64,000 nucleotides of DNA, taken from positions 434,001-498,000 of the forward strand of contig NC_013512.1 in the NCBI RefSeq assembly GCF_000024885.1. Reading direction: 5' to 3'. The translations under genes were made by a program, and so were the position numbers. Source of the stretch: Sulfurospirillum deleyianum DSM 6946 (lineage in GTDB: Bacteria; Campylobacterota; Campylobacteria; Campylobacterales; Sulfurospirillaceae). The notes under the pieces are model-generated. The model made no database searches, was not told where the DNA came from, and saw only the letters and a list, made by a program, of their open reading frames with translations. This document shows, one piece after another, positions 924 through 11,534 of the stretch. How positions within the stretch are numbered: position 1 is the first letter of the stretch; every line of letters starts with the position of its first letter.

Positions 924-1301
924 GGGGCTGACATGGCTTCGACAGGAGTAGTTTTAGCTTATGGCTGCATGTCGGGAGTGAGGGTCTTCCGTTACACAAC
1001 CTTCAAACAATAACTGCTAACAACAGTAACTATCGTCCTGCTTACGCGCTAGCTGCGTAAGTTTAACAAATAATGGACTGCTCTCCCCTTTGATGCTATC
1101 TTAGGAGGTCTTGGAGAGTATCATAGATTTGATAGCTATATTACATGAACGCCTTTACATGTAATGAAGTTAAAGGCTCGTTTTGCGTAGTTTTCTGATT
1201 GTTGTACGAAGCAAAATTAAACACTATCAACAATATCTAAGCATGTAGACGTCATAGGTGGCTATTTTTGGACTGGGGTTCAATCCCCCACAGCTCCACC
1301 A
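924..1301 (+). ncRNA. ssrA: tmRNA (transfer-messenger RNA)
   Basis: The 5' end GGGGCTGACATGGCTTCGAC and the 3' end with GGGGTTCAATCCCCC, CAGCTCC and ACCA form the tRNA-like domain; 5' GGGGCTG pairs with 3' CAGCTCC. The tag reading frame at 1016-1060 codes ANNSNYRPAYALAA and stops with TAA, close to the Campylobacter type of tag. tmRNA rescues ribosomes stalled on broken messages and tags the product for proteolysis. The 3' end is the integration site of the island that follows, and the CCA end was kept intact. One TTACATGTAA palindrome lies inside at 1155-1164. The 3' boundary is firm; the 5' end is set by pairing. Confidence 0.95.
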
Positions 1302-3574: not shown

Positions 3575-3754
3575 ATGACACAGACACAAAACGAAAATAT
3601 GCGCATTAAACAAGTAGCGGAAACCTATCCTGTTTCCAGAGCTAGCATTTGGCGATATGTCAAAGATGGGAAAATCAAGGCATACAAAATAACTGATGGC
3701 GTAACAATATTTAAACGCTCAGAGCTTGAGAGCTTTTTTAATGGCGAGAGCTAA
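3575..3754 (+). CDS. AlpA-like HTH regulator / excisionase
   Basis: A 59-residue protein with the pattern of AlpA/MerR-type helix-turn-helix proteins: a first helix (IKQVAETYPVS), a recognition helix (RASIWRYVKDGKI) and a wing ending in FKRSELESFF. In P4-like islands such proteins activate the integrase or act as excisionases. An AGGAG sits about 8 bases before the ATG, and a gene follows after 9 bases. Function is inferred from family and context. Confidence 0.8.
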   Translation: MTQTQNENMRIKQVAETYPVSRASIWRYVKDGKIKAYKITDGVTIFKRSELESFFNGES

Positions 3755-3763
3755 GGTTAGCCA

Positions 3764-3937
3764 ATGCAGAAGATTAGACTCTACATCGATTTTCAAGCAA
3801 CAAGAAATCAGTATCGTTTACGTTTAAAGGGCTCTAATGATGTAGCCCTTTACTGTTCAACTAAGAGGGAAGCGATTAGAGCACGATTGTTTCTGCGTAA
3901 GGTAATACGTGCTTTAGAACCAAGGGGAGAATTATGA
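3764..3937 (+). CDS. Small basic protein of unknown function
   Basis: A 57-residue, strongly basic reading frame (many Arg and Lys). Its stop overlaps the start of the ATPase gene in an ATGA junction, which supports it being a real, translationally coupled gene. The pattern RLYIDFQATRNQYRLRLKG and STKREAIRARLFLRKV resembles the arm-binding N-terminus of some phage integrases, so it may be a DNA-binding protein or a relict. The family is not certain. Confidence 0.5.
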   Translation: MQKIRLYIDFQATRNQYRLRLKGSNDVALYCSTKREAIRARLFLRKVIRALEPRGEL

Positions 3938-5925
3938 AACAAATCCAAGTCAAAAATAGCCCAGTAGCTATTGATAAATTTTGTAGTGAAATGAAAACTA
4001 AATTTGAAAGTTTTGGCATCTTTGCTTCAGAAGGAATTATGAAACTTCAAGAGCAGTTATGTGCTTCTTACAATAAAGTAATTAACGATAATCAAAGCGG
4101 AGAAGAACCTGTGATGTATGTTATGCCTCCCGCAACAGGAACAGGGAAAACTACAAGCATCAAGCTTTACTGTGCAATGATGCCTAAACATATAAGTGCT
4201 TTGATTATTGTCCCTAAAGTTGAACACGCAAAAGACGTTTGTAAATCAATCAATGACTATGCAAATGAAGAGATTGCCTATTGTTCTTATACTGTAACTG
4301 CTGATAACCCTGACCATAGCTTACGAGTTGAGATTGAGTCAATACAAAAGCATCGTATTATTGTCATCACCCATGAACGCTTTAGACGAGACATAAAATC
4401 AAAAAAATCAATCTTGGGATATGCTTCACCCAATGAAGAAAAAGATTGGTTGGGTCGAGTCGAGACTAAGAATAGAGATTTGATAATCGTAGATGAACAA
4501 ATCAACATGATTGAGTCGGAGACGCTAGAGAGTTATGAATTAGAAAAGATGAGTCTTCTTGCAAGGCAACTACCAAACGAAGAGACTAAAAAAATAGTTA
4601 ATACGATTGTTGCCATGTTGAAGAGCCTTATTGATGAGAGCCGAAAGATAACAGCTATCACAGAAGAAAAAAATATGGATTGGAATTTGTTTATTAGTCC
4701 ACTCATTGAAGTTTTAAGCAGCAAGGACACATCTTGGTATAAACTATCAAGAGCAGAATTTTCCTTTCGTAGAAATTATAAAAAAGAGTCTAATGAGATT
4801 GAGCTAAGAGAAGGCTTTATAGATGCACTAAAAAGTTTATGTTTGATACTTGATAGAAAGATGTTTTTTCACAAGCATGGAACCAATTGGACACTTCATG
4901 GAGTGAATTTGCTTTACCATGAGTTTGGAAGCCTAGTTGTCTTAGATGCAACATCAGAAGTTAATAAAAAAATTGAACTGATGAAGGAATGGATTAGCAT
5001 CAAAAATGAAAATCCAAAACATTTTAAAGCAGACAGACGATTGATTGAAAATATCAAAGTTCCAAATCCTAGAACCTACCATAATTGCAAACTTTACCTT
5101 TGTAAAGAAAATTGGGTACGACATTCACGCACTGGCTTAAACATAGACAATGAAGCTGAGTGTAAACTCACTTTAGCACCGTATGTCAAATCAATTAAAT
5201 TAAACATAGAGCCACATGATGATGCTTTGATTATTACCTACAAAGACATAGCAATCACAATGAAAAGCTTAATTGGACTAGAGAATGCAAATGTAATTCA
5301 TTGGGGGAACCACGATGCAACAAATGAGTACAGGCACTGCAATAAGGTTTTTATTGTCGGACTAAATCATTTACCATATAGCGTTATGTTTGAACAGTTT
5401 AGCTTTATTGTCGGTGGTGTAGAAACAGCTTATGAAGTTGAAGAAAATAGAAAAATAGAAATACCAAAACTTGCATCCAGTAAACTTGCCGAAGACATCA
5501 TTCAAGGTGTCTTTAGAAGTAGAGCAAGGGTTTCAAAAAATCATGATGGAAGCCCAGACTCAACAGAGTTTTTTATCTTTTTGGGGAAGGAAACCAATAA
5601 AAACAAAGAGATAATTGATTTAGCTTTAGAAGCTATGCCAAATATTCAAGTTTTAGATTGGGAATTAAAACATTCTGTGGCGATGCCCCCAAAGAAAAAT
5701 AAAGTTAGTGAGCAAATAGAAATGCTTATAGATGTTCTTGAAGCGTATGCCCATGATGGGTACAGTGACGTGCTTCGTGAAACCATTGAAAATAGAATGG
5801 CAGTAACAAAAGTAGTAATGAAAAGATTGCTCTCAAACCAAGTATGTATTAATGAACTTGGAAAAGCAGGTTTCAAATACGTTGCTGGAATTGGCAAAAC
5901 TAAGTCAGTGTTCATAATGCCTTAA
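3934..5925 (+). CDS. Large SF2 helicase-like ATPase of the island
   Basis: A 663-residue protein with a Walker A motif (ATGTGKT, residues 67-73), a DE-type Walker B (IIVDEQ, Asp187-Glu188), a motif III-like LDATSE near 337 and an arginine-rich motif (FRSRARVSK, near 526) in the place of SF2 motif VI. Spacing fits a divergent superfamily 2 helicase or translocase of the DEAD/DEAH fold, though the motifs are loose. It is the largest gene of the element, coupled to the small gene before it and followed by a cluster of inverted repeats. It could serve replication of the excised element or phage defence; the sequence does not decide. Confidence 0.7.
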   Translation: MKQIQVKNSPVAIDKFCSEMKTKFESFGIFASEGIMKLQEQLCASYNKVINDNQSGEEPVMYVMPPATGTGKTTSIKLYCAMMPKHISALIIVPKVEHAKDVCKSINDYANEEIAYCSYTVTADNPDHSLRVEIESIQKHRIIVITHERFRRDIKSKKSILGYASPNEEKDWLGRVETKNRDLIIVDEQINMIESETLESYELEKMSLLARQLPNEETKKIVNTIVAMLKSLIDESRKITAITEEKNMDWNLFISPLIEVLSSKDTSWYKLSRAEFSFRRNYKKESNEIELREGFIDALKSLCLILDRKMFFHKHGTNWTLHGVNLLYHEFGSLVVLDATSEVNKKIELMKEWISIKNENPKHFKADRRLIENIKVPNPRTYHNCKLYLCKENWVRHSRTGLNIDNEAECKLTLAPYVKSIKLNIEPHDDALIITYKDIAITMKSLIGLENANVIHWGNHDATNEYRHCNKVFIVGLNHLPYSVMFEQFSFIVGGVETAYEVEENRKIEIPKLASSKLAEDIIQGVFRSRARVSKNHDGSPDSTEFFIFLGKETNKNKEIIDLALEAMPNIQVLDWELKHSVAMPPKKNKVSEQIEMLIDVLEAYAHDGYSDVLRETIENRMAVTKVVMKRLLSNQVCINELGKAGFKYVAGIGKTKSVFIMP

Positions 5926-5931
5926 AGCCTA

Positions 5932-6325
5932 AATTCAGTGTGGACATTTTTCCCTAATAGAAAAGAAAAAACATTAGGGAATTTTGTCCACACTGAAATT
6001 GCTTAAAGTAGGGCTTTCCCTTCACTTTCTTGGCATTAAAAAGGAACCACCTTCCGTAGGCGTGGGAGAGCATTGGAATGAGGAAATGATAAGCCAAAAG
6101 CGACTGACTGACTTTGGCTTGCCAAAGGCGGGCAGTATCATTTTCGAATGGAACTGCTCTCTCTAAGCCTACGTTTATGAACAATAAATAAAAAAATAAA
6201 AACTTTTTTGGGATACCTCTCAAGCTAGCAACCAAAACAACAATTCCGCCCCTTAAGCCAAAGGCTCACCCCACCGAGGGGGTTCGCTTTCTTTGGCTTA
6301 AGAAACAAAATCAGTTTTGGTTGCG
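5932..6325. repeat. Cluster of three long nested inverted repeats, possible origin
   Basis: No gene is convincing here. Three hairpins follow one another: arms 5932-5958 / 5973-6000 (about 27 bases, core TTCAGTGTGGACA / TGTCCACACTGAA); arms about 6056-6090 / 6137-6173 (CGTAGGC ends, GGGAGAGCA / TGCTCTC inner part, imperfect); and nested arms AGCAACCAAAAC / GTTTTGGTTGC (about 6225-6236 / 6314-6324) enclosing CTTAAGCCAAAG / CTTTGGCTTAAG (6252-6263 / 6291-6302). The first may end transcription of the ATPase gene. Position after a helicase-like gene suggests a replication origin, which is inference. Confidence 0.6.
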
Positions 6326-6403
6326 ATACGAGAACCGAGAACAGGGGCAAAGGAACCAGAGTTGACTCCAAAGGAAGAGTGTAGCGTACCGCTTAACCAC
6401 ATG

Positions 6404-6536
6404 TACCTAATACACGCATACGAATAACATAATTTCTACCAATTTTGATTGGCTCAGCGTACTGATTAAATTTTAATCATATATACCAATTACGCGCAGA
6501 CGAATAGCATTATTTTTGTCTTATTTAATTGGCTCA
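6404..6536. repeat. Direct repeat, 53 bases, spaced 80 bases
   Basis: Imperfect copies at 6404-6456 and 6484-6536 share TACC.A.TAC.CGCA.ACGAATA.CAT.AT and end in ATTGGCTCA. The second copy contains the last codons of the XRE regulator on the minus strand; the first therefore looks like a duplicated 3' end of that gene and its trailer. It may instead mark protein-binding sites. Confidence 0.55.
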
Positions 6537-6781
6537 AAAAACTCATTTATTGAAACATTAAAAAGTATAGACAACCTAAAAAGATGCGACAAATTAAAAT
6601 GCTTTCCATGTTTATAGTTTTCAATATTGGCATAAAAACCTGATGACTTTTGTCCGATAGATAGAGCCACCTCAAGTTGGCTCATCCCCTTTTCATTGCG
6701 TATTCTTTTTACATTATAGGAAACAGTTCTAAAAAACAAATCCTCTTCTTCTGCTGTTACTATATCGGGGATATTCAGCAT
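6521..6781 (-). CDS. XRE/Cro-C1 family transcriptional regulator
   Basis: An 86-residue protein with a helix-turn-helix domain over residues about 20-75: NVKRIRNEKGMSQLEVALSIG, then the recognition helix region SSGFYANIENYKHGK, and a fourth helix around LFRLSILFNVSINEFFE. This is the Cro/C1 fold typical of phage and island repressors. It is divergent from the membrane operon that starts at 6890; the 108-base gap holds repeated operator-like sequences, so it probably represses itself and that operon. Confidence 0.85.
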   Translation of the reverse strand: MLNIPDIVTAEEEDLFFRTVSYNVKRIRNEKGMSQLEVALSIGQKSSGFYANIENYKHGKHFNLSHLFRLSILFNVSINEFFEPIK

Positions 6782-6786
6782 ATAAC

Positions 6787-6865
6787 CATTCCTATAGATA
6801 ATTTTCCCATAAGTTTAGTTGGAGTATAGTTTTCTATCAATTCTTTATAGAAATCATTCCTATAG
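6787..6865. promoter_or_regulatory. Putative XRE operators in the divergent promoter region
   Basis: CATTCCTATAG occurs exactly at 6787-6797, beside the regulator start, and at 6855-6865, just before the 6890 gene. Between them lie ATAGTTTTCTAT (6827-6838) and TATAG..CTATA half-sites (6846-6864). Repeated CTATAG half-sites in a divergent promoter next to an XRE gene are what operator sites look like. Confidence 0.5.
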
Positions 6866-6889
6866 GATTTTATCGGCTATTGGAGAATA

Positions 6890-7744
6890 ATGAAGTTCAA
6901 ATCACTTATCTTATTTTTTAAACAACTAGTCTTTTTACTAATTATGATTTTTCTACCTCATCAACTTATAAGTAAAACTGAAATAACTGAAAACACATTA
7001 AAGGCTTTTGACGAAGCATCTAGCAATCCAAAGAATGATACAACAGGGTTTCAATGGCAAGGTGTTGCTGGAACTGTATCATCTAAGTTATTATATTTCG
7101 ACAACGAAGAGAAGCTTTTTAAGTCAAGGAACAAAGCTAGTACGGTAACCAAAATGGAAGCTATGCGACAAATTTATGATGATGCTAATAATAATTCCGA
7201 AATATCTTTTGATGACAAATATAAAGAACAACAAGGCTTTAGAAAAAACATACTAACTCCAACAATGGTTTATGATATGTTGGTTCCTCTTGGGGGTCAA
7301 GAGCAAGACATAAAGAATGTTTATGAAAGAGCAAAAAGCGAAGAACATCTTACTGCTTTGATTGCTGAAACAACAGATAAAATAAAAAGAAGAGAAGTAC
7401 AAAATGAAATACTAACGGAAGGAGAACAAAATTTTGCACGTGTTGCATCATTAATATTTAGTTTGAAAGGTTTATTTGTCAGTTTACTCTTATTAATATT
7501 TTTTTATATTTTATACAAGCAACTAAAAAATCTCTTGGAAGCAATAAAACAACGAGTATGTAAATACAAAGTTCAAAAAATAGCAGAAGATGAAGCAATC
7601 AGAGCCACTGTTAATAAAGCAGTGAACGAAGATACCGAAGACGGGAAGGAACTACAAGAGCTTATCAATAAAGCAGTTGCAAAAGGCGATACTGAAACCG
7701 CTCAATCATTGCTAGCAATTTTAGAACGTAGAAAAGACAAATAA
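6890..7744 (+). CDS. Unknown membrane protein, first gene of the island membrane operon
   Basis: A 284-residue protein not recognised by family. It has an N-terminal hydrophobic segment (residues about 7-25, signal peptide or anchor), a polar, helix-rich region of about 160 residues, a strong membrane segment at about 186-210 (LFVSLLLLIFFYILYK) and a charged, probably cytoplasmic tail with two short similar repeats (TVNKAVNEDTEDG.E and LINKAVAKGDTET). The next gene follows closely, and the XRE regulator lies divergent upstream. Low-GC, AT-rich codon use fits the island. Function unknown. Confidence 0.65.
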   Translation: MKFKSLILFFKQLVFLLIMIFLPHQLISKTEITENTLKAFDEASSNPKNDTTGFQWQGVAGTVSSKLLYFDNEEKLFKSRNKASTVTKMEAMRQIYDDANNNSEISFDDKYKEQQGFRKNILTPTMVYDMLVPLGGQEQDIKNVYERAKSEEHLTALIAETTDKIKRREVQNEILTEGEQNFARVASLIFSLKGLFVSLLLLIFFYILYKQLKNLLEAIKQRVCKYKVQKIAEDEAIRATVNKAVNEDTEDGKELQELINKAVAKGDTETAQSLLAILERRKDK

Positions 7745-7762
7745 TAGCATATGGATAGGCAG

Positions 7763-8737
7763 ATGAAAAAAATTATTGTATTAATATTCTTAGCTTTTAC
7801 TATTTTGGGGGCAAAAGAAGAAGCAATGCAGATTACTGTTGGCTCTGAAAAATTTTCTATTCCTACGCCAGATAATTTCATAGAAATTAGTAAATTAGCA
7901 CCACAAATTGTTGATGCTTACAAAACCACACTTGGCTATAAAGCTAATATTCGAGGATATTATTTTATAAAGTCTGATTTTGAAAAACTGACAAAAAATG
8001 AAAACGCAAAGACAAAAGAAAGACGAGCAGTCATCTATACACCAACCGCTTATGAAAACATGAATATTAGCCAAAAGCAATTTAAAGAAATAGTCGATTC
8101 AACACTAAAAAAACTCAATATAGACGTTAAAAAAAATGATTTAACAAAACCCAATCAGACAATAGAAACCATACAAAAAAAAATGTCTATCGCAACAAAT
8201 GAAGCCATTAAGAAAGTAAAGACGAATGGTGCTTCTGTTCTTGGTATATCTTTTGAAAATGAAAACAGCTTAGGATATACCATGCTGTTAAAATATGAAG
8301 ATGAATCGAAAAAATCTTATATCCAAGTCATGGATGTGGGGATGATGTTCATCAATGGAAAAGTTCTAGTATCTTCATTTGCTACTGCATATGAAAAAGA
8401 AAGCGATATATCTTGGGTCAGACAAGAATCCAAAACGTGGGTGGATAAAATAATTACAATAAATGCCAACAAACCTACAAAGCAAAGATTATTTTCAACC
8501 TATACCTACGATGAACCAGCTACTAGACCAAGTTCTCTTGAGATGGACGAGAAAGAGAGAAAAGAACTCAATGAGTTTATTTCTAAAGGTGGTTTCACTG
8601 GTTCTCCAAAGACAACATCAGAACTTATTGATAAGCAAAAAGCACAATGGAAGAAAAATGCAGAAATAGAAGAAACCCGCAAAAAAGAAGTGTCGGGAGT
8701 GTCAACATTTTCAAGGTCATCCGAGGGGGTTGATTAG
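7763..8737 (+). CDS. Unknown secreted or periplasmic protein, second gene of the operon
   Basis: An unrecognised protein of 324 residues from the ATG at 7763. That start gives a clean signal peptide (MKKIIVLIFLAFTILGA) after a GGATAGG-type ribosome site; an in-frame ATG at 7751 would add four residues. The mature part has an alpha/beta look, with a region around GASVLGISFENENSLGYTMLL and hydrophobic beta-like stretches to about 230, then a polar, lysine-rich C-terminal tail that may be disordered. It lies between two membrane proteins, so a shared envelope complex is plausible. Confidence 0.65.
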   Translation: MKKIIVLIFLAFTILGAKEEAMQITVGSEKFSIPTPDNFIEISKLAPQIVDAYKTTLGYKANIRGYYFIKSDFEKLTKNENAKTKERRAVIYTPTAYENMNISQKQFKEIVDSTLKKLNIDVKKNDLTKPNQTIETIQKKMSIATNEAIKKVKTNGASVLGISFENENSLGYTMLLKYEDESKKSYIQVMDVGMMFINGKVLVSSFATAYEKESDISWVRQESKTWVDKIITINANKPTKQRLFSTYTYDEPATRPSSLEMDEKERKELNEFISKGGFTGSPKTTSELIDKQKAQWKKNAEIEETRKKEVSGVSTFSRSSEGVD

Positions 8738-8739
8738 TT

Positions 8740-8904
8740 ATGGGTAATGTATTTTCTTTCCTAATGACTTTAGTTCTTTTTGGGGTCGCTAGCATTTTTA
8801 TAGTAGCATCTTCAGTTGTCTTAGAATACGTATTACCATTGTTATTGTTTTGTGGTTTAGTGTTAGGTTTAATTTTGCATATTGTAGACAAGAATAAAAA
8901 ATAG
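8740..8904 (+). CDS. Small two-helix membrane protein, third gene of the operon
   Basis: A 54-residue reading frame starting 3 bases after the previous stop, with GAGGGGG some 11 bases upstream. It is almost wholly hydrophobic: two predicted membrane helices (residues about 5-27 and 31-49) and a short basic end (DKNKK), which favours a cytoplasmic C-terminus. Tight spacing and a hydrophobic pattern unlikely by chance support a real gene. Function unknown. Confidence 0.55.
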   Translation: MGNVFSFLMTLVLFGVASIFIVASSVVLEYVLPLLLFCGLVLGLILHIVDKNKK

Positions 8905-9061
8905 CTTCAAAAAACTCTAAATTTGCATGAGATATTAGAGATGCACCTCATCTCCCACCCTCGAAATAACTATTTCCCCATAGGGCTTCACTAGAGAAGA
9001 GCCAAGCAGAAATATTTTTCTACAAAAGAAATTAATTGAACTTAGTTCTACTAGAGCCAAG

Positions 9062-9743
9062 GCGATTTAAAATCGCGTTCTGTACTGCCTAAAGGTTCAT
9101 TTAAGGCTAAAATCGCCTTAAATTTATCTTGGTTAACGGATTTTAAATCCGAGTGATGTCAAAGCCGATTTCAAATCGGTGCTTAAACCAATTATAAGGA
9201 TTTGAAATCCTTATGTGAACCTTGGGCTCAATGGCTTCGCTATTGGCTATCCAAATGAGAGAGCCAAAGGACTGCTGTCCAAAATAGGCATCAGTATGCC
9301 AAGTGGACAAAGGAATTAGATTGGCTGTCTTTAATGGACATCCAACATTAAAGCTAAGTAGACATGGACTGCTCGCCAAAATTGCTACCAGTATGCGTAA
9401 TTGGCTCTAAGCTTACTATCCATAATGGCGAGTAAGCAAATGATGGTTTTGGGCTTCTACGAGAAATTCGTATTAAGCAAAGGGGGTCTTAGACGGCTCG
9501 CCAAAACGGCTAGCCGTTATACAAGTGGATTTGGTCTGCGCCATAACTCGTACACCATTGGCTCTGATACGCTAGCTAAAATGGTAACCGTGGCTCTAGT
9601 ACGCTACTAATAATTCGTATCGTGCTTTGTGCGCTATCCAAAATTGCCATCGTCTATAACTTCTCGCCAAAATGGCGACAAGCATAACGGTTGTCCAAAA
9701 TAGACATCTGTGTTTTGGACGGCTACTAGAAACAAGTAGCCGT
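9062..9743. repeat. Tandem array of about 19 short hairpins with variable stems
   Basis: No convincing gene lies between 8905 and 9942. Hairpins follow each other at 28-51 bases centre to centre. Group A (9062-9214) has a core like GATTTnAAATC with changing flanks: GCGATTTAAAATCGC (9062), TTAAGGC/GCCTTAA (9101), CGGATTTTAAATCCG (9137), CCGATTTCAAATCGG (9165), and a 21-base palindrome at 9194-9214. Group B (9243-9743) has units of 23-27 bases with a loop near CCAAAAT and usually a 1x1 mismatch in the stem, for example ACGGCTcGCC/GGCtAGCCGT (9493-9517), TTGGcTGTC/GACAtCCAA (9321-9345), ACGcTAC/GTAtCGT (9601-9623), CTTcTCGCC/GGCGAcAAG (9660-9682), ACGGCTACT/AGTAGCCGT (9719-9743). Stem changes are paired, so the fold is kept. 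Confidence 0.8.
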
Positions 9744-9863
9744 TACACGTACAGTAAGGCTTTGGCTTTTGTGGTAGTTCTAAGGTCGTTAGGCTTAATT
9801 TTATAACTATTTTATGATACTATTCAATCTTGATAAATGAGAAATTAAAAACGTAAGATGTGA

Positions 9864-9942: not shown

Positions 9943-9966
9943 GTTCAATCCCCCACAGCCCACCAT
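9943..9966 (+). other. Inner attachment site (attR of the inner element)
   Basis: GTTCAATCCCCCACAGC (9943-9959) is identical to the tmRNA 3' part at 1278-1294, followed by CCACCAT with one base missing compared with TCCACCAT. It closes the element that carries the integrase (about 8.7 kb). Confidence 0.85.
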
Positions 9967-9982
9967 TCCATCAAAATTAACC

Positions 9983-10152
9983 AATAGACTTTTTTCATAA
10001 CCCATTGAAAAAAGAGTATCGCTCATAGCACATCACTTTTTAAAATTAAAAACATCGCCATAGCTTTGGCTATGACTCAATTTTGAGTTTTAAAAATTAA
10101 CGCACTCTAACCAAACTCTTTATCTTTTCAAGGGTTATGAAAGAAGTCTAAT
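9983..10152. repeat. MITE-like element of about 170 bases with long inverted ends
   Basis: The left end AATAGACTTTTTTCATAACCC (9983-10003, one string of 21 positions with core TTCATAACCC) is inverted at 10132-10152 (GGGTTATGAA...GTCTAAT), and the pairing continues inward through ATTGAAAA / CTTTTCAA. The middle holds two more hairpins, CATAGC tttg GCTATG (10059-10074) and ACTCAATTTTGAGT (10075-10088). Part of it (10025-10061) recurs with two mismatches at 20673-20709, so it is a dispersed repeat. No coding sequence inside. A non-autonomous transposable element is likely but unproven. Confidence 0.55.
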
Positions 10153-10289
10153 AAGAAAATTGAGCTAATTTTTTACAATTTTGAAGAAAATAAAAAGCAC
10201 TGTAATCAAAAATATTGATAGCCTAAAAGGAAGTAGTGCACGGCTAGAAATGGAAGTAATTGAATCTTATCTTATAATATTTATTTCGA

Positions 10290-10295
10290 TATAAT
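10290..10295 (+). promoter_or_regulatory. Putative -10 box of the fic gene
   Basis: TATAAT within CGATATAATGG, 36 bases before the start codon. The segment is very AT-rich and a second TATAAT lies at 10273-10278, so the exact start of transcription is uncertain. Confidence 0.4.
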
Positions 10296-10331
10296 GGTCA
10301 TTCAAAAACATTTAAAGAGAAGTAGTTAAAT

Positions 10332-11498
10332 ATGATAGAAGAACTAGATAGTAAAAAAATTACGATTCCTGACCCATCTTGGGGAAGTGATTTGGCTAAT
10401 ATTATTTTGGATTTGGAAAAGCTAAGAACTCGACATCTTGGTGGCAATGTTCCTCCATATATTTTTTTTCAGCTTAAAAATATCTTTCAAATTTTAGAGA
10501 CCTTAGGTTCTGCTAGAATCGAAGGGAACAACACCACATTATCTGAGTATGTTGAAAAACTTATTGATACCCATGTCAAAGACGAAAGTGATGATGAAAT
10601 AAAAAATCTAGAGAATGCCATACAATTTATAGAAGAAAACACCGATGAAAAGACTTTTTTTAATCGTGCTTATATCTCAGAGATTCATAAAATTATTACG
10701 AAAGATTTAACCCCACCACCACAGGGGGAAGGTTCTAAATACTCGGGAGAACTAAGAAAACATGATGTGAGCATTAAAAAATCAGGTCACACTCCACCCG
10801 TACATTTTTTACTTCCTGAATACTTTGAAAGATTTGTAGAGTTCATCAATGAAGAATATAAAGAACAATATCAACTTTTGATGGTAGCTATTGCTCATCA
10901 TAGATTTGAATACATCCATCCCTTTGACAACGGAAATGGTCGTATGGGAAGACTTCTAAATTATGCATTTTTAATAAAATTGGGATTTAAAGTAAAACAA
11001 GGAAGGCTTATCAACCCTTCTTCCGTTTTTTATACCGATAGAGACCAATACTATGACATGCTTTCACGTGCTGATAGTTTAGAAACCAATGATTTATTGG
11101 CATGGTGTGAATATTTTTTAAGAGGTCTAAAAAATGAGATTGAAAAAATAGATCATCTTTTAAAAAAAGAGTATGTGCAAAAAGAGATACTTTTACCAAC
11201 GTTAAAAATAGCGCTTGAAAGAGAACATATCACAAAACAAGAATTTGACATCTTGTCTTATCTTATCAAAAAAGATGATATGGCAATGAAAGCTGAAGAG
11301 CTTAGTACATTTGGGATAACAGACTCCAAGAAAAAATCGTTAGTTATCAATAAATTAAGAGATAAAAAAATGATTGTTCCTATAACAGATGGTGGGCGAA
11401 TATACACCGTACGCTTTGTAAACAACTATCTCTTGCGAGGAATTATGCAAGTGTTAAAAGAAAATGGGTTTGTATCTGATTTTTTGAATAATAACTAG
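10332..11498 (+). CDS. Fic-family protein (AMP transferase) with N-terminal inhibitory motif
   Basis: A 388-residue Fic protein. The active-site motif HPFDNGNGRMGR starts at His196, with all residues needed for nucleotide transfer to a target hydroxyl. The self-inhibitory motif SxxxEG/N is present as SARIEGN (residues 60-66), which places it in the class with the inhibitory helix inside the N-terminal part. A Fic N-terminal domain precedes, and a probable winged-helix DNA-binding part fills residues about 290-375. It lies alone between the inner and outer attachment sites, so it is cargo of the older, outer integration. Target unknown; no separate antitoxin is seen, which the built-in inhibitor explains. 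Confidence 0.9.
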   Translation: MIEELDSKKITIPDPSWGSDLANIILDLEKLRTRHLGGNVPPYIFFQLKNIFQILETLGSARIEGNNTTLSEYVEKLIDTHVKDESDDEIKNLENAIQFIEENTDEKTFFNRAYISEIHKIITKDLTPPPQGEGSKYSGELRKHDVSIKKSGHTPPVHFLLPEYFERFVEFINEEYKEQYQLLMVAIAHHRFEYIHPFDNGNGRMGRLLNYAFLIKLGFKVKQGRLINPSSVFYTDRDQYYDMLSRADSLETNDLLAWCEYFLRGLKNEIEKIDHLLKKEYVQKEILLPTLKIALEREHITKQEFDILSYLIKKDDMAMKAEELSTFGITDSKKKSLVINKLRDKKMIVPITDGGRIYTVRFVNNYLLRGIMQVLKENGFVSDFLNNN

Positions 11499-11519
11499 CG
11501 CAAGACATGTTTTGGCTGT

Positions 11520-11534
11520 CCACAGCTCCACCAT
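11520..11534 (+). other. Outer attachment site (attR of an older element)
   Basis: CCACAGCTCCACCAT equals tmRNA 1288-1302 exactly, 22 bases after the fic stop. Genes typical of the core chromosome begin right after it. Together with the copies at 1278 and 9943 it frames two tandem insertions. Confidence 0.75.

Follow-up and report, generated by a model that had tools for sequence, protein, structure and literature searches.

Three open reading frames (ORF1, ORF2 and ORF3) and a divergent gene for an XRE (Cro/C1-type) regulator lie in a stretch of 64,000 nucleotides (the window) of the Sulfurospirillum deleyianum DSM 6946 genome, which comprises 2.31 Mb in one contig (NC_013512.1; the window spans positions 434,001 to 498,000, and coordinates below are counted from its first letter). 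The ORF1-3 operon is cargo of a small element integrated at the transfer-messenger RNA (tmRNA) gene. As a whole, the analysis supports, with a probability of about 0.72, that the XRE gene, together with about 100 bp of DNA holding the operators and the promoters for both directions, is a portable, autoregulated cassette which occurs phylum-wide with exchangeable partners. The regulator family, its divergence and spacing, its predicted operators and both kinds of exchange described below emerged from the comparison of loci.

Results

The XRE family and its divergent partners

The regulator gene of the window (6521-6781, minus strand) encodes 86 residues scoring 31.1 bits against the Pfam helix-turn-helix (HTH) family HTH_3 (PF01381; gathering cut-off 23), in agreement with the divergent Cro/C1 regulator that a first-pass annotation had read from the letters of the window; the protein is a putative autorepressor. 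ORF1 starts 108 bp away in the opposite direction. A profile built from four seeds (the window and the loci L025, L026 and L077) detected the XRE family in 151 of 328 sampled Campylobacterota genomes (E 1e-8 or better), with up to nine members per genome. Ninety-two loci were sampled, 30 from the search, 60 down the ranked list, L077 and the window; one locus near a contig end (G263:C96) was skipped, and for G087:C6, which has two XREs, the better one was used. Two of the loci were without an upstream gene on their stretch, leaving 90 to be scored. A divergent upstream gene was found in 85 of them, at a median spacing of 104 bp. After removal of the seeds 81 of 86 XRE loci were divergent, compared with 76 of 324 genes taken from these loci as controls, and the spacing was 75-130 bp in 55 of these 81.

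The 80 partners located within 300 bp fell into 50 BLAST clusters, the largest with 11 and 9 members. Partners with a hydrophobic N-terminus were more frequent than control genes of this kind (44 of 76 against 117 of 427, p 4.5e-7; 27 of 47 when counted by cluster, p 7.6e-5). Pfam domains in the 50 cluster representatives were scattered and mostly seen once each, including GGDEF, MCP, response regulator, HSDR_N, DUF1643, SHOCT (two), Opacity/OMP barrel, PDZ, Excalibur, FIST and others, and in PADLOC mads_2 and a type IIG enzyme were matched once each. At the seed locus L077 (3201-4549; genome G027) the partner operon, at a distance of about 7 kb from the tmRNA gene, encodes a 56-residue membrane protein and a 370-residue lipoprotein with DKDGFN repeats. 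A third cassette in the window's genome (L123, C1:934430) belongs to the window's operator class and faces a lipoprotein that is also found in G014 and G019; cross-talk with the window's switch is possible.

Unrelated and often envelope-associated partner families, the autoregulated divergent design and the copy numbers per genome would also suit a selfish addiction or kil-kor-like module, whose partner is harmful when unrepressed, so that a cell which keeps the partner after loss of the repressor dies and the cassette is stabilised. In plasmid kil-kor regulons a repressor silences a potentially harmful, often envelope, gene, and the likeness to the cassettes lies in a repressor that would keep its partner silent. 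The kor proteins are, however, global regulators of one plasmid, whereas each cassette here faces one partner gene or operon, and the toxicity of the partners is putative. Furthermore, loss of a whole element removes both genes and would therefore cause no post-segregational killing unless the partner outlasts the repressor, and several partners resemble ordinary signalling proteins (GGDEF, response regulator, MCP). We consider an addiction module unlikely.

Operators and promoters

Repeated sites in the shared promoter region had been pointed out before, and they proved to be confined to it: CATTCCTATAG occurs in exactly two copies in the genome, both between XRE and ORF1 and 68 bp apart. In several loci of the same subgroup the two sites are 68-70 bp apart. 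The predicted XRE-side operator (6789-6813) is an imperfect inverted repeat, TTCCTATAGATAATTTTCCCATAAG, and shares bases with the presumed -10 region (TAAACTTA) of the XRE promoter; the predicted operon-side operator (6843-6866) is the inverted repeat CTTTATAGAAATCATTCCTATAGG. The promoter scan placed the XRE promoter, by consensus match only, at TTGATA-17-TAAACT (6812-6840, minus strand); a weak candidate operon promoter, TTTTCC-17-TATAGT (6802-6830, plus strand), was read from the sequence and overlaps it. The window XRE combines the two marks of the cassette, a divergent partner about 100 bp off and duplicated CTATAG-centred inverted repeats at both intergenic ends.

For the family as a whole operators were counted in 81 regions from the 92 loci, only loci with a divergent gene at 330 bp or less being kept. 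CTATAG was present in 45 of the 81 XRE-partner regions (4.25 expected from shuffles) versus 4 of 180 control gaps between other genes of these loci, and in 42 of 77 regions once the seeds were removed; for TAAACTTA the corresponding counts were 27 of 81 and 4 of 180. Alignment of the window's subgroup, 20 loci with a FYANxEN-like motif, gave CTATAGAAATGATTTCTATAG, followed by ATTG and TATA-rich DNA and then by TTAAACTTATAGAAAACTTTTCTATAGGAAT just before the XRE start, so that in this subgroup two inverted repeats flank the predicted overlapping promoters. In 13 of 41 nonredundant regions a 14-mer recurred with 13 or 14 matching positions, compared with 2 of 205 shuffles. Other subgroups carry other palindromes (TTCACTATAGTGAA-like, AACTAACTATAGTTAGTT, ACTTGTTATAACAAGT and ACTCTATTATAATAGAGT), and by eye the recognition-helix region differs along with the palindromes.

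Exchange of the repressor block and of the partner

XRE pairs of 70-80% identity had unrelated partners in 83 of 94 cases, and upstream of the XRE gene they had an exact word of 16 bp on average in common (shuffled mean 8.5, maximum 14). The XRE family was furthermore found in nine plasmid records (Aliarcobacter 4, Arcobacter 3, Sulfurimonas 1, Sulfuricurvum 1), all nine with a divergent annotated partner 100-165 bp away. On the Arcobacteraceae plasmids pAFAEC, pM830MA and pCNAC48 this partner is the 182-residue lipoprotein WP_026806861.1; the three plasmids agree to 98-99% in the partner gene and to 96-99.5% in the next gene, whereas the XRE-operator blocks are 45-64% and the XREs 42-50% identical, and the palindromes differ. 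Conversely, the XRE blocks of pCNAC48 and of the Kiel 2759 plasmid are 94.5% identical and their lipoproteins differ. One or other of these two lipoproteins is carried by seven of the nine plasmids, which therefore do not represent nine independent cases. Judged by these comparisons exchange has proceeded in both directions, with regard to the repressor-operator block as well as to the partner. Since partners change while operators are kept, and blocks are swapped on plasmids, we read the unit as a portable repressor-operator cassette with exchangeable cargo.

The same data bear on the possibility that divergence and spacing were simply passed on vertically with a few XRE loci, with no portable cassette. 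Some partners are clustered, as in the groups of 11 and 9, and XRE pairs above 80% identity had a partner family in common in 35 of 58 cases, which would fit such inheritance. At 70-80% identity, however, this holds for only 11 of 94 pairs, and the two-way exchange is found within near-identical plasmid flanks; the explanation is already disfavoured and very improbable.

On another of the plasmids, Sulfurimonas aquatica pSULFM1 (L183, 1-2311), the XRE partner is a 442-residue lipoprotein-like protein, and a caspase-family gene follows further along the same strand.

Conservation of the ORF1-3 operon

ORF1 (6890-7744, plus strand; 284 residues) has hydrophobic segments at residues 5-23 and 185-203 and a tail of about 80 residues, as expected for the two-segment membrane protein with a long tail of the first-pass annotation. 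Its predicted layout is an N-terminal hydrophobic segment, a periplasmic region, a transmembrane helix and a cytoplasmic tail, which was modelled as a helical hairpin with moderate confidence. ORF2 (7763-8737, plus strand), described as a secreted protein of 324 residues, indeed has this length and an N-terminal hydrophobic segment and is predicted to be secreted or periplasmic; an upstream ATG at 7751 would extend it to 328 residues. ORF3 (8740-8904, plus strand) is a predicted inner-membrane protein of 54 residues, for which two membrane helices had been proposed: two hydrophobic stretches are discernible by eye, whereas a 19-residue scan calls one (31-49). The genes are as tightly spaced as stated, with gaps of 18 bp between ORF1 and ORF2 (6 bp if ORF2 starts at the upstream ATG) and 2 bp between ORF2 and ORF3, and codon statistics favoured the annotated frame for all three and for XRE.

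The first-pass annotation had recognised none of the three families, and likewise no credible family was obtained for ORF1-3 in Pfam, PHROGs, PADLOC or NCBIfam. The PADLOC anti-phage defence models gave no match up to E 1, and the best PHROGs match, to a phage family of unknown function, had an E of 0.034, too weak for membership. RLL (PF10036) was rejected for ORF2, its score being under the Pfam cut-off, and the best match of a PDB sequence search (E 0.22) was disregarded. The predicted structures reached pLDDT (predicted local distance difference test) values of 54.5 for ORF1 and 38 for ORF2, and Foldseek gave no match to the ORF2 model at E 0.001 or better, with TM-scores (template modelling scores) below 0.3 among the matches listed; given this low pLDDT and the Foldseek result, no fold is claimed for ORF2.

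Conservation was surveyed for ORF1 and ORF2 in 44 genomes of the family and 397 of the phylum, ORF3 being left out of the genome searches at its 54 residues. ORF2 was found in 1 of the 44 family genomes, the window's own, and no relative was seen in the 43 others, in 396 other phylum genomes, in a genome-contig scan, or among viral contigs, plasmids and phages; the sole other match among the 397, in G303, was weak and was rejected as an unrelated 631-residue protein. The relatives of ORF1 are two orphan genes, L005 (G011, 320 residues) and L009 (G289, 257 residues), both with a signal-like start, a transmembrane helix and the conserved tail IAxDExIR...LQxLINKAxxKGDxExAQxLLxIL. Their periplasmic regions differ from that of ORF1, the common part being the transmembrane helix and the cytoplasmic tail only, and neither ORF2 nor XRE was present at either locus in the fetched stretches. 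Matches to ORF1 in G016 (histidine-kinase-like), G017 and G028 (the same region with the same weak score) were rejected, and weak matches of a tail profile in G193, G200 and G303 were not counted. A side observation concerns L012 (5461-9066; G011), in which an ORF1 relative stands amid small genes that by resemblance only are toxin-antitoxin-like (PIN-like, nucleotidyltransferase/HEPN-like and BrnT-like).

These results speak to the proposal that the operon is an undescribed three-gene system, which in its fuller form would be an envelope system for defence or competition with XRE merely as its dedicated regulator. Such a system would be in keeping with the tight operon, the membrane and secreted topology and the mobile-element location, and with the envelope genes that stand divergently to XRE in two further helicase elements (L025 and L026, see below). 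Joint conservation, on which the proposal depended, is absent for ORF1 and ORF2 in the 44 family and 397 phylum genomes, the relatives of ORF1 lack its companions, and PADLOC yielded no match. We regard a dedicated three-gene defence system as improbable; by sequence, the conserved feature is the regulator with its operators and not the operon.

The tmRNA-integrated element

The tmRNA gene (924-1301, plus strand; ARAGORN) is kept in all 24 of 24 genomes of the genus, and its 3' end, the integration site, contains the left attachment repeat GTTCAATCCCCCACAGC (1278-1294, plus strand). It is followed on the plus strand by genes for a tyrosine integrase of 416 residues (1489-2739; PF13356/PF00589), to which integrases in three other genomes of the genus are 57-63% identical, an AlpA/excisionase-like HTH_17 protein of 59 residues (3575-3754; PF12728, phrog_66) and a DEAD-box helicase-like protein of 663 residues (3934-5925), common to the elements L025 and L026. 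An internal copy of GTTCAATCCCCCACAGC (9943-9959, plus strand) marks the right end of the integrase-bearing element, and the outer right junction TCCACAGCTCCACCAT (11519-11534, plus strand) is continuous with an empty site in G031. In this genome, whose tmRNA is 99.5% identical, the next gene follows about 55 bp after the tmRNA and the same sequence resumes at about 11519 in the window; the comparison of both junctions therefore indicates an insertion of about 10.2 kb, in two units. Unit one (1278 to about 9960) comprises the integrase, AlpA-like, helicase-like and XRE genes, ORF1-3 and a hairpin array. Unit two (about 9960-11520) carries a Fic-domain gene (PF02661) in tandem between attachment repeats and is without its own integrase; the Fic protein is 94% identical in G033, where it lies 0.8 kb past the tmRNA (DNA 91% identical over 1317 bp), and the unit was possibly mobilised by the integrase of its neighbour. 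The island location suggested earlier is thus borne out by the tmRNA 3' end, the attachment repeats and the empty site in a near relative, and the element context supports accessory cargo under an XRE regulator.

The helicase family was found in three elements (the window's, L025 and L026) of two genomes (G000 and G015), together with one distant match in a 141-kb viral contig; matches outside G000 and G015, short and weak as they were (E 1e-5 to 8e-4), were left aside. L025, the second helicase element of the window's own genome, has a duplicated fliP 3' end at its flanks (125 bp, 89% identical), and L026 in G015 ends near tRNA-Arg. ArdA (PF07275) was identified in L025 by domain test and in L026 by resemblance. 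The XRE of L025 faces an outer-membrane barrel (PF02462, PF13505), that of L026 several small hydrophobic/membrane or secreted proteins. With their tRNA or tmRNA site, tyrosine integrase, AlpA-like and helicase-like proteins and XRE regulator, phage satellites and other small integrative elements resemble the element of the window, in which, in contrast, no satellite packaging, capsid or relaxase gene was noticed, and whose helicase family was seen only in the occurrences just named.

The operon is separated from the right end of the integrase element by a non-coding, hairpin-rich array (8905-9830) of varied palindromes, with GATTTNAAATC cores and CCAAAAT repeats. Its single strand folds much more stably than shuffled sequences do (z -8.5), codon statistics favoured no frame in it, and no relative was found in 23 other genomes of the genus except for the integrase-arm end (query 906-1022; G013, G025 and G032). 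The operon had been suggested to work together with this array; no link between the two was found. The intergenic DNA after the helicase gene (5926-6520) is strongly folded as well (z -7.4) and contains a 28-bp inverted repeat (5931-6000); structure is likewise seen in the DNA that follows the L025 helicase gene (z -6.1), and 5926-6520 is a possible origin. Rfam matches were rejected, their scores being under the gathering scores.

Discussion

The closest documented regulator is the control protein C.Kpn2I, which has a divergent partner under overlapping divergent promoters (PMC6237814). With such restriction-modification (R-M) C proteins the window XRE has in common a fold class of XRE proteins of about 80 residues and, as far as predicted, self-regulation, a two-site operator and, as for C.Kpn2I, a divergent partner under overlapping promoters. 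XRE could accordingly be a C protein or a derivative stripped of its R-M genes, to which size, fold, weak PADLOC control-protein matches (E 0.0015) and one partner with an HSDR_N domain would also point. Linked R-M genes are the defining feature of C proteins, however. Almost none of the partners here is an R-M protein, and scans of the element proteins (Pfam, PHROGs, PADLOC, NCBIfam) revealed neither a methyltransferase nor an endonuclease. The operators moreover stand at both intergenic ends, about 68 bp apart, and not as one C-box, and repression of both genes is putative here. A C-protein origin is quite unlikely.

Small HTH repressors that face a divergent gene are also known from phages (CI/Cro, RstR of the CTX phage), where operator-repressor specificity classes are exchanged as an immunity block, and the cassettes resemble these in each of the points mentioned. 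They differ in that the cassette partners are accessory genes and in that no relative of the XRE family was seen among 120 IMG/VR candidate stretches, with two weak Listeria phage matches only. Against the RstR model (NF041951, NCBIfam) the window XRE scored 15.3 bits at a cut-off of 80 and does not belong to this family. In the open-access literature, a limited collection searched with limited terms in titles and abstract openings, no such cassette was found described.

For the portable cassette we propose the following mode of action. XRE would bind both operators and cover the -10 and start regions of both back-to-back promoters, which may be mutually exclusive, and the bound repressor would shut its own gene and the divergent partner. 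Expression of the partner would therefore be expected if the repressor is missing or overwhelmed, as may be the case right after entry of the element into a new cell: with no repressor at entry both promoters would fire, and the partner would be made early and fall as the repressor accumulates. By comparison of the loci, repressor and operator vary in concert, which yields specificity classes, and move as one block, the partner being exchanged independently. Block exchange of this kind is found in phage immunity regions, and block exchange within fixed flanks would be the expected look of selection for new specificity. A further-reaching, rather speculative reading takes the cassettes as exchangeable immunity groups for accessory envelope genes, in which diversifying selection and recombination swap block or cargo; the cargo would be silent with a matching repressor and on without it, and the cassette would thus tell self from non-self at entry. 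For ORF1-3 the likeliest role, though a tentative one, would be that of an envelope-spanning assembly (ORF1 as anchor, ORF2 periplasmic, ORF3 as a small inner-membrane protein) which alters the cell surface and so keeps out other elements or phages or competes with them.

Several observations weigh against the portable cassette or parts of its interpretation. About 40% of the partners (32 of 76) are without an N-terminal hydrophobic segment, so that an envelope role is not general; among these are a response regulator, an HSDR_N protein and a DUF1643 protein. In the window's XRE subgroup envelope partners are not more frequent (12 of 20) than among the other loci (35 of 60). Operators are not recognisable everywhere, as 10 of the 41 nonredundant regions score 11 and 5 score 9-10, near the shuffles. 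The -35 of the operon promoter is weak, the promoter scan did not list this promoter, and XRE could alternatively activate one promoter. For ORF1-3 an envelope assembly is suggested by the topology, and exclusion or competition, indirectly, by the setting. Finally, gene calls came from a simple in-house script by which some XRE starts were mis-called, namely in L093 (53 residues; replaced by the L025 coordinates in the repeat-pair analysis), L109 (52 residues) and L149 (38 residues, partner not recognised).

One small regulator family marks many unknown, often envelope, accessory genes of the phylum, to which Campylobacter, Helicobacter and Arcobacter relatives belong. As the operators can be read off the sequence, a catalogue of repressor specificity classes and of partner genes could be drawn up. 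The natural allele exchange within near-identical plasmid flanks provides ready pairs for asking whether repressor classes act like phage immunity groups.

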